Assembly: GCA_026414995.1 (NCBI GenBank)
Contig: JAOAHY010000003.1
Location: 1 to 45,168 of the forward strand
Source: Caldisericia bacterium
Lineage (GTDB): Bacteria > Caldisericota > Caldisericia > B22-G15
Reading direction: 5' to 3'
Length of the DNA stretch: 45,168 nt
Below are positions 39,278 to 45,168 of the stretch, in pieces. The position numbers were made by a program, and so were the translations under genes. Numbering within the stretch: position 1 is the first letter of the stretch; each line of letters begins with the position of its first letter. Below the pieces are notes generated by a model, which was not told the origin of the DNA, did no database searches, and saw only the letters and a list, made by a program, of their open reading frames with translations.

Positions 39278-40963
39278 ATGAAATTTTTTAATTCATTAAG
39301 GTTTCAAGTAATTGTTTCATTTTTTGTTGTTGTGATAATCTCAACATTTCTTCTTGGTTCTATTATGATTAGAACCATGGAAGAAAACCTCTGGAAGGCA
39401 GAAGAAGAAAAGTTAACAACAATTGCAAAACAACTTGAAATAGCTTATACAAGAATAATTGAAAGGTTAATAACAACCGCATCTATTCAAAAGATAGATT
39501 TAAAAACAGCTAAAAGGTTGTATCTTGAAAGATCATTGGAAGATTATACATATACAATTCATGAACAAAATCCTCTTTATGGTGTTGGATATTTCATATA
39601 TGGAGATTATTTTAATAGACCAGTTGCATTTTATGAATCCTCCTCTACTTTTTCAGAAAAATATAGAGTTGTTTTATCTCTTTATGAAAATGAAGAGGAG
39701 TCAGGTTATGTTTGGGTTGAAGAACCAAAAGAGATAGTTTATTCAAAAATTAACCAACTCAAATTAACTCAAAGAAACATACTTTATATAGTTGTTTTGA
39801 TTTCTGGTCTTTTTGCAATTTACATATCAACAATTTTTGTAAGAAAAGTTACTACAATCAAAAAAGGCTTAGAAAATTTAAAAACGGATCTTTCATTTAA
39901 ACTTCCTAAAATGTCTGGAGAGATGGGTGAAATAAGTTTTGCAATTAATGACCTTGCTCAAACTCTTTTAATAACAAGAAGTAATTCTGAAAAAATTCTT
40001 GAAACTATAAATTCAGGGGTACTTGTTATTACAAAAGATGGAACAATAAAAGAAGTTAATAGGGCATTTGAAAAACTATTGGATTTAAAGAAAAAAGATA
40101 TTCTTGAAAAAAATTTTAACACAATCCCAATATTAAAAAATCTTCTTTTCGGTCTTTTTGAAAAGGGAAACTTAAAAGAAAAAAGAGTAAAAATTGGAAA
40201 AGATGAAAAAATATTTAACATACTTTCAACTCCATTTAATACAGATGAAATTTTAATTACAGTTGAAGATATAACTGAAGAAGTTAAACTTCTTGAAGAG
40301 AAAAGAAGAACAGAGTCATTAAAAACTCTTGGAATTTTTACCACAGGTGTTGCTCATGAAATAAGGAATCCTTTAACTGCTATTAAAGGTTTTGCACAAA
40401 TTCTTGAAAAGAAATTTGAAAATGATGGTGATGAATTAAAATATACAAGAACAATTCTTAATGAAGTAAAAAGGTTAGAAGATATTGTAAAAGATTTACT
40501 TATGTATGGAAGACCATCTCCTCCAAACAAAATTTTGTCAAACATTTCAAGTGTTATAAAAGATTCAGTTTCTCTTCTTCAGGAAAAAATCAGTGAGAAA
40601 AATATAAATTTAGAGTTAGATTTAGTTTATGATCCAAAATTTAATTTCGATCCAAAACAAATGGAGCAAGTTTTACTCAATTTGATATTAAATGCAATTG
40701 ATAGTTCTGATTTTAATGGAAAAATTATTGTTAAAACAAAAAAATATGAAGATGGAATTTTAATTGAAGTAAAAGATTTTGGATTTGGAATAAAAGAAGA
40801 AGATAAAGAGAAAATTTTCACTCCATTTTTTACAACAAAAGAAAAAGGAACAGGTCTTGGTCTACCAATTTCACAAAAATTAGTTGAAATGCATAATGGA
40901 AAGATATGGTTCAATTCAGATCAAAATGGTACAAGTTTTTTTGTTTATCTTCCAGTAATATAA
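39278..40963 (+). CDS. Sensor histidine kinase, NtrB/AtoS-like
   Basis: Membrane sensor of 561 aa. Helices at about residues 8-30 and 167-188 bracket an extracytoplasmic domain of about 135 residues of unknown ligand. A HAMP-like linker and a PAS domain (about 235-335) follow. The HisKA domain has H360 in VAHEIRNPLTAIKGFAQIL. The ATPase has the N-box NLILNAIDSS (N468, N472), DFGFGI and GTGLGL. It lies next to a sigma-54 response regulator, the usual partner type for this kinase subgroup. The start codon directly follows the phosphofructokinase stop. Confidence 0.93.
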   Translation: MKFFNSLRFQVIVSFFVVVIISTFLLGSIMIRTMEENLWKAEEEKLTTIAKQLEIAYTRIIERLITTASIQKIDLKTAKRLYLERSLEDYTYTIHEQNPLYGVGYFIYGDYFNRPVAFYESSSTFSEKYRVVLSLYENEEESGYVWVEEPKEIVYSKINQLKLTQRNILYIVVLISGLFAIYISTIFVRKVTTIKKGLENLKTDLSFKLPKMSGEMGEISFAINDLAQTLLITRSNSEKILETINSGVLVITKDGTIKEVNRAFEKLLDLKKKDILEKNFNTIPILKNLLFGLFEKGNLKEKRVKIGKDEKIFNILSTPFNTDEILITVEDITEEVKLLEEKRRTESLKTLGIFTTGVAHEIRNPLTAIKGFAQILEKKFENDGDELKYTRTILNEVKRLEDIVKDLLMYGRPSPPNKILSNISSVIKDSVSLLQEKISEKNINLELDLVYDPKFNFDPKQMEQVLLNLILNAIDSSDFNGKIIVKTKKYEDGILIEVKDFGFGIKEEDKEKIFTPFFTTKEKGTGLGLPISQKLVEMHNGKIWFNSDQNGTSFFVYLPVI

Positions 40964-40979: not shown

Positions 40980-42395
40980 ATGAATATGAGCAAAAATGAT
41001 AGAGTTACAGTGCTAATTGTTGATGATGAGGAAAATATTCTTGAATTTTTAAATGAAGCATTAAAAGAAGATTATATTATAATTAAAGCAAAAAATGGAA
41101 AGGAGGCTTTGAAAAAAGTAACTGAGTTTTATCCTGATGTTGTTCTTATGGATTATAAAATGCCAGGGATGGATGGGATGGAGGCATTTTTAAAAATTAA
41201 AGAAATTGACAAAGACCTTCCTGTAATTTTAATGACTGCTTATGGCACTAGTTCTGTTGCAATTCAAGCAATGAAAGAGGGTGCTTATGATTATGTTACA
41301 AAACCGCTTGACCTTGACGAAATTAGAGTGACCCTAAAAAGAGCAATAGAACTTAAAAAATTATCTGAAAAAATCAAAAAGAAAGAAATTCAATATGAAG
41401 GTGATTTTCAAGCAGAAGGGTTAATTGGAAAATCTCAAGTTATGCAAGAAGTTTATAAACAAATAGGAAAAGCAGCATCTTCAGATGTAACTGTTTTAAT
41501 TTTAGGTGAAAGTGGAACAGGCAAAGAACTTGTAGCAAAATCAATTTATAAAAATTCTTCAAGAAGAGACAAACCATTTGTGACAGTTAATTGTGCTGCA
41601 ATTCCTGAAGGACTTCTTGAATCAGAACTTTTTGGTCATGAAAAAGGTGCATTTACTGATGCAAAAGAAAGACACATTGGAAAATTTGAACAAGCAAAAG
41701 ATGGAACTATTTTTTTAGATGAAATAGGAGATATGAGTTTACCTCTTCAAGCAAAAATTTTAAGAGTTTTGCAAGAAAGAAGTTTTGAAAGAGTTGGAGG
41801 AACTGAAACAATTTTTACAAACGCAAGAATAATTGCAGCAACAAATAAGAATCTATTGAAACTTGTTGAAGAGAAGAAATTTAGAGAAGACCTTTATTAT
41901 AGATTAAATGTTTTTACAATAACTCTTCCTCCTTTAAGAGATAGAAAGGAGGATATCCCTGATCTTGTTGAATATTTTATTTTTAAATATTCACATAAAT
42001 ATCAAAAAGTTATTACAGGTATAGCACCAGATGTTATGGATATCTTTATGAATTATTCCTGGCCTGGAAATGTTAGAGAATTAGAAAATGCGATAGCACA
42101 TGCAATTGTTGCATCTCATGGTCAAATAATTTTAAAAGATTATCTCCCTCAAACAATTTTAGGGAACAAAAAAGTTGAAGTTACATCTAATAACATAAAT
42201 GATGATAAAGTTTTACCACTTAATGAGGTTGTTGCTAAAGTGGAGAAAGATATGATTATTAAAGCATTAAAACAATGTAAAGGTAATAAAACTAAAGCAG
42301 CAAAACTTTTGGGGATTTCAAGAAAATCTTTATTTAATAAAATTAGGGATTATAATATAATCATAGAAAACATTGAAAATATAAACGAGAATTAA
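40980..42395 (+). CDS. Sigma-54-dependent response regulator, NtrC family
   Basis: Transcription activator of 471 aa. The receiver domain has D58 as phosphoacceptor (VVLMDYKMPGMDG). The AAA+ domain has Walker A GESGTGKE (176-183), the sigma-54 contact loop GAFTDA (223-228) and Walker B IFLDEIGD. A Fis-type helix-turn-helix closes the protein (NKTKAAKLLGISRKSLFNKI). It implies that the organism has RpoN. I found no convincing -24/-12 promoter in the window, so the regulon is unknown. The start at 40980 is chosen over the next Met at 40986 because it matches the -10 spacing. Confidence 0.95.
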   Translation: MNMSKNDRVTVLIVDDEENILEFLNEALKEDYIIIKAKNGKEALKKVTEFYPDVVLMDYKMPGMDGMEAFLKIKEIDKDLPVILMTAYGTSSVAIQAMKEGAYDYVTKPLDLDEIRVTLKRAIELKKLSEKIKKKEIQYEGDFQAEGLIGKSQVMQEVYKQIGKAASSDVTVLILGESGTGKELVAKSIYKNSSRRDKPFVTVNCAAIPEGLLESELFGHEKGAFTDAKERHIGKFEQAKDGTIFLDEIGDMSLPLQAKILRVLQERSFERVGGTETIFTNARIIAATNKNLLKLVEEKKFREDLYYRLNVFTITLPPLRDRKEDIPDLVEYFIFKYSHKYQKVITGIAPDVMDIFMNYSWPGNVRELENAIAHAIVASHGQIILKDYLPQTILGNKKVEVTSNNINDDKVLPLNEVVAKVEKDMIIKALKQCKGNKTKAAKLLGISRKSLFNKIRDYNIIIENIENINEN

Positions 42396-42487: not shown

Positions 42488-45168
42488 ATGAAAAAATTTT
42501 TAGGGATTTTAATTATTTTATCCCTTCTTTTAACCTTCGCCCCTGTTAAAAATTTAACATTTTCTATATCAAATCCTGTTAATGTTATTAATGTTACATT
42601 AACACCAAATATTGTAGGAGAGTTAGTTAGAATAGATATTAAATTTATTTTAGGTGTTTCAATTTCAGCAAATTCTGATAATATAGTGATAACTTTTCCT
42701 AAAGATTCATTAGGTGATACATCAAAAGAATTTTATTTACCAACAAATATTCCTAAAACATCAGTTTTAATAAATGGAAGCAATAATATAACTGATGTTC
42801 AAGTAGATTTATTAAATAGAAAAGTCGCAGTTATAACATCAATAAATTTAGCAGCAGCAAATGAACATGTAATTACTTTTTTAACTACATCAGGTATTAA
42901 AAATCCAACAAAATCTGGTTTTTATTCATTGAAATTAAATACTTCACAAGAAACCGTGCTTTCATCTTCTCCATCTTTTTATATTTACCCCGGACCATTT
43001 CATCATGTTAAGATAATTCCAAATCCATCATTTTTCTCATCTAATAGATATGCTACTGGTCCTACAGCAGAATTTTATCTTGCAAGGTATGGTTCCTCTG
43101 GTGTAATGGATTATATTCCATCTGATATGTATGGAAATAATCTTTTTGAAGGATACACATACACTTTTGGAAATTGGGTTAAACCAGAAGATAAAGATTG
43201 TGGATATGAAACTTATGACATACCAACTGCAAGATGGTTTATAGTTTATGACCCAAATAATCCTTCACCTTCACCACCTGGCGGTCATACACCTGTAAAT
43301 TGGCATTGGTGGATTCCCGGTTTTAGTTCTAATTATGCAATAAGACTTTCTTCGCCAGGGAATAAATCTGATGATACATCATTATTCATTCATCCACTTT
43401 ATAATAAAAACCTTTCCGATTTTATTTTAGAAACTAAAATTGCATTTGATAACACTGTTGGTTATCATAGGGGAGTTAAATTTAGATTTAATGATTATGT
43501 TACAAGATACAATACAAAAGCAAATGGTTACTATGTTGATATATGGGGCCCTAATATAAGACTATTAAAGACAGTAAATGGAGTTGAAACTCTAATAACA
43601 CAAAGTCCCTTACCTGCTGCAATATCTGCAAACACTTGGTATACTTTAAAAATAGTTGCTAATGGATCAAATATTCAAGTATTTTGGGGTCCCTCATCTT
43701 TGCCTTTACCAACTACTCCAATAATAAATGCAACTGATACAACATTTACTTCAGGAATTTTTGGTGTATGGCAATATGGTGGTGATGCAATTGTAAGAAG
43801 AACAGATTGGGATGATTTTTATATTAAAACATTAACAGGAGTAACTCTATTTTCAGATAATTTTGAAACTAAAATAGCAGCACCAAATGATCCACCTGAT
43901 GATGGTGTTGATGCAAATTTTAGATATTGTGATTCAAATAATAATGGGGTTTATGATTGCATGGATTGTGTTTATCTTGACCTTGATAACTCTTTCTCTG
44001 TAACAAGAGGAGATATAAGAATTACAGCATCAACTTGTGGTGGAAGTTATGGACCAGGAAGTATTGTTAAAGCAGGTGATTCTGATATAGGAATATCATT
44101 AAGAACATTAAATGTCTTTTTAAACCCATCAACAGTTAGAGCAGGGGATGAAGATATAGGAGGACCTGCTATTGATATTGGAACTGGATTAATAGGTTTT
44201 GCTGCTACAGAAAAACATGCAGATAATATAAATTTAATTGCATCGTTTGAGCCCGGAGAGTGGATTTATAGAGATGCACCCATAGATCCATTTCCATTTT
44301 ATGTTTCACCAGGAGATACAAGATTAACAACTGTCACAATTGGTTCAGTTAATTACCCTGTAAATAGTGTTGTAAGTAATCCATTTGTAAAACATACTGA
44401 TGGTGGACCCACATTAAATACTTATGATCCAGGTGAATATATTTATCAGGATAATGATAATAGTGGAACTGTTACAGTAGGTGATTTAAGATTAACTACT
44501 GTTGGAGTTTATCCTGCTGGTTCAACTGTTGCAGCAGGAGAAATTGATATTGGGACAGTTCTAATACTTTTTAATTTTGCTACTGGAACACCAGAAAAAT
44601 TTGTAGATGCAAATGTTAATTTAATGTATAACATAGGAGAGTGGATTTATAGAGACAATGATAATAATAAGATAGTTTCTCCAGGAGATACAAGATTAAC
44701 ATCTGTAACAATTGGAGCAACAACTTATACAGCAGGTTCTACTGTTGCAATTGGTGATTTAGATTTAGGAAAAGCACTAATTCCATTTGGTGATTTGGAT
44801 TTAGGAGAACCACTTATAAACTTTGCGGCGAATGAAAAACACGCTGAAAACTTAGTTTCAGATAATTTATATAATCCTGGCGAATGGATTTATAAAGATA
44901 ACGATGCATCAAATACCGTAACAACCTATGATTTAAGACTTACCTCTGTTACAATTGGTGTAATAACTTATCCTGCAAACTCAAATGTAACATCTGGGTA
45001 TGCTCTTAGACCATTTGCTGCAGATGAAAAATATTATGATTACGATTTTACAACAACATTTACGACAGAAGATTGGATATATAGAGATTTAGATAATTCA
45101 AATACTGTTACAGCAGGTGATAAAAGATTGTCAAATGTTACAATTGGTGGAAAATCATATCCTGCTGG
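42488..45168 (+). CDS. Large secreted repeat protein (3' partial, EF-hand-like repeats)
   Basis: The reading frame runs open for 893 codons to the window edge. A signal peptide (about residues 1-22, FLGILIILSLLLTFAPV) starts it. Residues about 25-150 form a beta-domain with IVITFPKDSLGD. Residues about 170-460 contain a segment like concanavalin-type lectin (DUF1080/LamG-like) domains: NGYYVDIWG, NTWYTLKIVANGSNIQVFWG, DWDDFYIK. From about residue 475 it repeats a unit built around GEWIYRDNDN and GDTRLTSVTIG. Each unit holds a 12-residue loop with Asp at positions 1, 3 and 12, as in EF-hand or dockerin loops, and most then have a GDxDIG motif. An in-frame ATG at 42452 is rejected because AAAGGAGAGG lies just before 42488. 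The function is unknown; a calcium-stabilised surface filament or cell-wall protein is inference. Confidence 0.85.
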   Translation, partial: MKKFLGILIILSLLLTFAPVKNLTFSISNPVNVINVTLTPNIVGELVRIDIKFILGVSISANSDNIVITFPKDSLGDTSKEFYLPTNIPKTSVLINGSNNITDVQVDLLNRKVAVITSINLAAANEHVITFLTTSGIKNPTKSGFYSLKLNTSQETVLSSSPSFYIYPGPFHHVKIIPNPSFFSSNRYATGPTAEFYLARYGSSGVMDYIPSDMYGNNLFEGYTYTFGNWVKPEDKDCGYETYDIPTARWFIVYDPNNPSPSPPGGHTPVNWHWWIPGFSSNYAIRLSSPGNKSDDTSLFIHPLYNKNLSDFILETKIAFDNTVGYHRGVKFRFNDYVTRYNTKANGYYVDIWGPNIRLLKTVNGVETLITQSPLPAAISANTWYTLKIVANGSNIQVFWGPSSLPLPTTPIINATDTTFTSGIFGVWQYGGDAIVRRTDWDDFYIKTLTGVTLFSDNFETKIAAPNDPPDDGVDANFRYCDSNNNGVYDCMDCVYLDLDNSFSVTRGDIRITASTCGGSYGPGSIVKAGDSDIGISLRTLNVFLNPSTVRAGDEDIGGPAIDIGTGLIGFAATEKHADNINLIASFEPGEWIYRDAPIDPFPFYVSPGDTRLTTVTIGSVNYPVNSVVSNPFVKHTDGGPTLNTYDPGEYIYQDNDNSGTVTVGDLRLTTVGVYPAGSTVAAGEIDIGTVLILFNFATGTPEKFVDANVNLMYNIGEWIYRDNDNNKIVSPGDTRLTSVTIGATTYTAGSTVAIGDLDLGKALIPFGDLDLGEPLINFAANEKHAENLVSDNLYNPGEWIYKDNDASNTVTTYDLRLTSVTIGVITYPANSNVTSGYALRPFAADEKYYDYDFTTTFTTEDWIYRDLDNSNTVTAGDKRLSNVTIGGKSYPA
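43920..45168 (+). repeat. Tandem EF-hand-like repeat array within the edge protein
   Basis: Repeat cores (GEWIY-type, each beginning about four residues before the Gly) start at 44246, 44423, 44627, 44870 and 45059, giving units of 59, 68, 81 and 63 residues. A diverged, cysteine-bearing copy precedes them near 43923. The array continues beyond the window. Loops seen include DNDNSGTVTVGD, DNDNNKIVSPGD, DNDASNTVTTYD and DLDNSNTVTAGD. Confidence 0.8.

Follow-up and report, generated by a model that had tools for sequence, protein, structure and literature searches.

Tandem repeats with paired EF-hand-type loops in giant, putatively surface-located proteins of Caldisericia

The Dx[DN]xDG loop has been described as a Ca2+-binding element in no fewer than 16 structural contexts (PMC3123361). 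As in EF-hands, it spans 12 residues, with ligands at positions 1, 3, 5, 9, and 12 and a hydrophobic residue at position 8. Several described families use such loops outside the cell. Type I dockerins (PF00404) carry a pair of calcium loops with Asp at position 12, as two loop-helix elements about 20-25 residues apart, and occur as one C-terminal copy. Thrombospondin type 3 repeats (PF02412) form strings of Asp-rich calcium loops in extracellular proteins, and GEVED (PF20009) and SdrD_B (PF17210) present a DxNxDGxxxxGE loop in repeated secreted domains. Two consecutive EF-type loops within one short polypeptide are also found in PDB entries 2ojr and 3vdz, ubiquitins that bear designed double lanthanide-binding tags. 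The repeat described here comes from a Caldisericia bacterium and is organised around two such loops per unit.

The window, i.e., the whole stretch of DNA that was analysed, comprises the first 45,168 bases of the 115.6 kb contig JAOAHY010000003.1. The frame of the repeat gene runs past the window edge to contig position 51769, in line with the initial annotation, which had described the protein as still open there. It counts 3,105 codons from ATG 42452, or about 3,093 from ATG 42488, which is the likelier start because it is preceded by GGAGAGGA. A single undetermined base lies at contig position 45169 (L003:3169), inside unit 6 and directly past the window edge, and the frame is open across it. 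The features of the window are as follows.

39278-40963, plus strand: NtrB-like sensor histidine kinase adjoining the repeat gene (Pfam PAS, HisKA, HATPase_c; synteny)
40980-42395, plus strand: NtrC-like sigma-54 response regulator, directly upstream of the repeat gene (Pfam Response_reg, Sigma54_activat, Fis HTH)
42488-45168, plus strand: giant putative surface-protein gene, N-terminal part (open frame; GGAGAGGA before ATG 42488; about 3,093 aa overall)
42488-42565, plus strand: probable Sec signal peptide, MKKFLGILIILSLLLTFAPVKNLTFS (judged from sequence)
43397-43684, plus strand: concanavalin/lectin-like domain, weak 3keto-disac_hyd match (Pfam E 0.0023, below cut-off)
43916-44119, plus strand: repeat unit 1, four Cys; loop 1 at 43931-43966, DSNNNGVYDCMD, loop 2 at 43979-44014, DLDNSFSVTRGD (profile matches, loop scan)
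44210-44386, plus strand: repeat unit 2, both loops degenerate (profile matches)
44387-44572, plus strand: repeat unit 3; loop 2 at 44450-44485, DNDNSGTVTVGD (profile matches, loop scan)
44594-44788, plus strand: repeat unit 4; loop 1 at 44606-44641, DANVNLMYNIGE, loop 2 at 44654-44689, DNDNNKIVSPGD (profile matches, loop scan)
44834-45025, plus strand: repeat unit 5; loop 2 at 44897-44932, DNDASNTVTTYD (profile matches, loop scan)
45026-45168, plus strand: repeat unit 6, cut by the window edge and ending near 45229; loop 2 at 45086-45121, DLDNSNTVTAGD (profile matches, loop scan)

Profile matches place 13 repeat units in the giant protein, six overlapping the window and seven beyond it. The initial annotation of a tandem repeat in a giant secreted protein is supported, the protein measuring about 3,093 residues. 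It had counted at least five GEWIYRD-type units and one diverged cysteine-containing unit, and five GE[WY]IY/EDWIY units and one Cys unit are indeed found across the window; the unit length of 59 to 81 residues given there is recovered as the spacing between the first Asp residues of the named loops. From its N-terminus, the protein consists of a signal-peptide-like segment, a beta domain, a weak concanavalin-like domain (the 3keto-disac_hyd match reaches a Pfam E of 0.00024 in the G002 ortholog), and the repeat region. Downstream of the repeats and outside the window, Pfam reports Ig-like domains (three Glucodextran_B matches, and Big_6 below cut-off) and a Cu_amine_oxidN1 domain at the C-terminus. 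Judging from annotation and position, the protein would be located on the cell surface, with Cu_amine_oxidN1 as its envelope anchor. Every one of the 41 Caldisericia genomes searched (e.g., G007, G008, and G015) encodes this domain, from 2 to 97 times, with 26 copies in the genome of the window; it is C-terminal in the surface proteins checked, and looks like a class-wide anchoring or sorting domain.

The unit, of about 65 residues, contains two loops spaced by four residues (DxNxNGxYDxGE-xIYx-DxDxSxxVSxGD), followed in the unit alignment by RLTxV, YxAGSxV, GDxDxG, and a final strand, with AGSxVxxGDxDxG as the conserved half. Where the initial annotation had recognized one loop with unexplained flanks, the loop (loop 2) stands, while the flanks resolve into a conserved C-terminal half and, upstream, a loop 1, intact or worn, of the pattern D/N-x-N-x-N-G-x-Y-D-x-G-E, which precedes loop 2 by four residues. 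EKHxDN, taken for flanking sequence, is actually the degenerate start of loop 1, and GDxDIG, also assigned to the flanks, lies inside the unit as its third conserved acidic site. The acidic loops, described there with Asp at positions 1, 3, and 12 and a hydrophobic residue at position 8, are present: the repeat region has 13 strict EF-hand-type loops, against a mean of 0.06 and a maximum of 2 over 2,000 shuffles, and the protein's remaining 2,031 residues have none. The 12-residue pattern D-x-[DN]-x-[DNS]-x-x-[ILV]-x-x-x-[DE] is found in loop 2 of nearly all units, and in loop 1 of a subset.

Conservation was assessed over 53 diverse units. In loop 2, D1 is retained in 48/53 (91%) and D3 in 44/53 (83%), while Val, Ile, or Leu at position 8 and D12 are found in all 53; position 5 is Ser, Asn, or Asp, position 9 is Ser, Thr, Asn, or Asp, and positions 1, 3, 5, and 9 hold ligand-type residues in more than 90%. 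The two acidic positions of GDxDxG are acidic in 87% and 79% of the units. Loop 1 is more worn than loop 2, all six tested positions being kept in 15 of the 53. Ligand positions tend to be retained or lost jointly, for example positions 1 and 3 of loop 1 (odds ratio 95; p 1e-9, which is indicative given 53 related rows) and positions 1 and 5 of loop 2 (p 3e-7, over the same related rows, whose kinship inflates p-values). Such joint keeping and loss is what a metal site would predict.

The Asp-, Asn-, and Gly-rich segments could instead be tight turns of a metal-free structural repeat, formed within a beta domain without any ion. This reading is unlikely, even though loop 1 is degenerate in many units and a few units without both loops still keep the C-terminal half, retaining the RLT, YxAGSxV, and GDxDxG core, so that metal would not be needed in every unit. 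Turns would need neither the full EF-loop spacing, including the ligands at positions 9 and 12, nor a hydrophobic position 8 in 53/53 units, nor the joint loss of ligand positions.

Cysteines also recur at fixed places in the repeat. Unit 1 (43916-44119) contains CDSN..DCMDC..TCGG, and in unit pairs of families f4 and f5 (L033, L032), one unit carries GCGE and the next YxCGS. The recurrence suggests disulfides within or between adjacent units.

Structure prediction, which had been proposed as a check on the repeat, yields a confident small beta domain. The AlphaFold2 model of a single unit (query, repeat unit 4, with the alignment of 53 natural units) has a pLDDT of 97.2 and a pTM of 0.84, and consists of strands without any helix; the model of a two-unit tandem (pLDDT 92.2, pTM 0.84) is also helix-free. 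In neither model do helices stand on either side of a loop, as they do in an EF-hand, and the units score below the Pfam EF-hand cut-off. The unit departs from EF-hand and other Dx[DN]xDG proteins by its lack of flanking helices, by loops only four residues apart, and by what appears to be a new fold context. Foldseek returns no PDB fold match (best E 2.5 for the unit and 3.4 for the pair), but it is weak for a 68-residue, strand-poor domain, so the statement that the unit has no known fold is provisional and PDB-based. The BFVD viral models, searched with the unit, contain no match either.

Comparison with named families agrees with the initial annotation, which had called the family unnamed. 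No unit reaches a Pfam or NCBIfam family cut-off, PDB profile searches give no significant relative, and the literature search revealed no publication on surface repeats of Caldisericia or on a family with loops paired in this way. Diverged dockerins plugging into cohesins could, in principle, build a surface complex. Loop 2 has the dockerin-type pattern, 3/53 units match Dockerin_1 weakly (best E 0.011; 13.5 bits among units scored singly, for a cut-off of 22.9 bits), and the organism's own genome contains cohesins and dockerins, with four matches each. Such an origin is, nevertheless, very improbable. When the unit profile is set against 16 genuine dockerins, some of them encoded in this bacterial class, hhalign gives a probability of only 7% over 20 columns, which bears out the earlier view that the units are unlike dockerins. 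Their loops are 4 residues apart instead of about 20-25 with a helix between, the model contains no helices, and the true dockerins of these genomes are found by Pfam in other proteins, whereas the units are not.

Cohesins and dockerins are widespread in Caldisericia, the former in 35/41 genomes and the latter in 21/21, and they are sometimes adjacent in one protein (e.g., G000:C28:1981-2529, G000:C12:8135-8677, and relatives). To our knowledge, no cellulosome has been described in the phylum Caldisericota.

GEVED and SdrD_B are calcium-stabilised surface beta domains with a DxNxDGxxxxGE loop, and GEVED is the nearest named family. One unit of G007 reaches 23.8 bits against a GEVED cut-off of 24.4, although this match covers half of the profile and loop 1 only; weak GEVED matches occur in 5/53 units, but in neither unit 1 nor unit 4 of the window. 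SdrD_B stays below cut-off, with 1/53 units matched (E 0.077), and loop 1 of the archaeal repeat discussed below scores 25.9 bits for a cut-off of 29.7. That the units are a variant of one of these families is, nevertheless, improbable: no match attains a cut-off, the C-terminal signature of true GEVED members (GEVED-like motif GEVEDY) is absent from the unit alignments, and profile comparison with three GEVED-type sequences yields 18% over 20 columns, in loop 1 only. Loop 1 is all that is common to them, the rest of the domain is different, neither family has a second loop four residues on, and there is no PDB fold match. For thrombospondin type 3, no TSP_3 match is obtained at E<=1 in the whole protein or in the 53 units, nor across six genomes, where no positive control matched either; unlike in those repeats, each loop pair sits here inside a 65-residue domain with a conserved core. 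The best PDB profile matches are the tagged ubiquitins, 2ojr (E 0.03) and 3vdz (E 0.13), with their two consecutive metal-binding loops. They are not significant, and these near-identical loops stand 3 residues apart, without the C-terminal half.

A closer relative may exist in archaea. Proteins of Bathyarchaeota contain the repeat KFVDxNxNGxWDxGExVVYDxNxNGxYxxGD, itself unnamed, in tandem arrays of secreted proteins (11/151 genomes of that class), and hhalign aligns it to the Caldisericia unit with a probability of 96.9% over 39 columns. Both loops are in identical register (D7, N9, N11, G12, aromatic 14, D15, G17, E18, D23, N25, N27, G28, D34). The archaeal repeat is shorter, about 50-58 residues, and appears to lack the RLT and GDxDxG half; the alignment ends after the 39 columns, though AGSxV may have its equivalent in a PxxGTxL segment. 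Of four proteins read, two finish with a dockerin-like tail, and two are cut by locus ends. The likeness could reflect either common descent or convergence on two loops.

Within Caldisericia, clear arrays are found in three of six families (f1, f4, and f5), with up to 42 matched units per genome. Family f3 shows few, weak matches in two genomes (E 1e-5 and 8e-5), and no matches are obtained in the remaining Caldisericia families, nor in family f7 of the same phylum. In total, 15 of the 54 genomes searched contain unit matches. The unit-bearing proteins of relatives are also very large, with N-terminal units, and the four that were scanned all carry Cu_amine_oxidN1 at the C-terminus, one just below cut-off. 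Viral contigs scanned with the consensus unit, and phage and plasmid proteins searched with one unit, give no match. Planctomycetota matches to the consensus alignment were rejected as family members, as they consist of single loops only, in other proteins. Three Planctomycetota loci (L045, L046, and L049) encode an S41/CtpA-like peptidase with about four DxNxNGxxDxGE calcium-type loops inserted within the catalytic region.

Between this genome, G002, and G004, the units match up in one consistent order (1; 6-9; 10-12; 13), which holds throughout even though few columns are available and several forks have weak support. This genome has an insertion, units 2-5, and G002 and G004 alone have two further units in common. 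From these pairings, the array is read as old and position-specific, with lineage-specific gains or losses, and not as a recently homogenised repeat. Between this genome and G002, which belong to one genus, the repeat region is much less similar (38% identity) than the two adjoining upstream genes (89-94%). G002 and G004, from different genera, nevertheless have giant proteins with 68% identity. This mismatch (L024, L026 versus L003) could be due to replacement, transfer, or fast change of the repeat gene.

The gene neighbourhood is also conserved. In eight genomes covering all three families (f1, f4, and f5), the orthologous repeat gene is immediately preceded by the gene of an NtrC-like regulator, and no such regulator is found at any other repeat-gene locus examined. 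The block comes after dnaE in f1 and f5, separated from it by pfkA in f1. In f4, fatty-acid genes precede the regulator and the repeat gene, and the stretch examined shows no kinase. As far as gene order goes, the occurrence of regulator and repeat gene together in two different surroundings argues for a functional link. A search for a sigma-54 promoter ahead of the repeat gene gave none, window-wide matches being at chance level. Both f5 regulators (L035:5874-7190, L036:4300-5634) lack the GAFTGA segment, and that of L035 also lacks the Walker-A lysine, while the f1 and f4 versions are intact; because this GAFTGA-type loop is lost, the f5 regulators may no longer act through sigma-54. A pilus cluster, suggested by a possible PilSR pair, was ruled out, the upstream genes being dnaX, a BON-domain protein, argS, gatB, dnaE, and pfkA.

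Taken as a whole, the preferred reading, which we hold to be reasonably probable, is that of a calcium-stabilised tandem beta module that makes up the outer portion of a surface fibre, distal to the cell. All-beta units of about 65 residues would be strung along the N-terminal region of a very long surface protein, presumably the end farthest from the cell, and the C-terminal Cu_amine_oxidN1 domain would tie this protein to the cell envelope. Each would be organised by a pair of EF-hand-type loops with a conserved Ile-Tyr strand between them, and by the third acidic turn, GDxDxG. Calcium is abundant outside the cell, and each unit would probably take up one or two Ca2+, in loop 2 and in loop 1 where it is intact. 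This would lock an otherwise strand-poor domain and probably stiffen the array into a rod or an adhesive head, with a structural or adhesive role. The frequent decay of loop 1 would be tolerated, as loop 2 and the remaining fold could still hold. Synthesis of the repeat protein would probably be linked to the sensor kinase and the NtrC-like regulator encoded next to it.

A bolder version is tentative and rather doubtful. It proposes a new small fold with two adjacent, possibly binuclear EF-type sites, common to Caldisericota and Bathyarchaeota, in a metal-switched surface rod tied to a dedicated two-component system. If true, the engineered double lanthanide-binding tag would have a natural counterpart in this two-site fold.

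Unnamed domains are common in uncultured lineages, and the units represent a real, previously unnamed domain family, in which a known principle, that of the EF-type calcium loop, is set in what may be a new fold. The unit would add a further structural setting for this loop, an unusual one with loops only four residues apart, and the short loop pair, arranged in tandem and apparently self-contained, is attractive as a scaffold on which to bind calcium or lanthanides. With a profile of the units, surface proteins that are at present labelled hypothetical could be annotated. The regulator's constant presence next to the gene makes the stimulus of the putative surface fibre a directly testable question. 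The unit occurs in many copies in putative giant surface proteins of a barely cultured bacterial class, and has a cousin in archaea.
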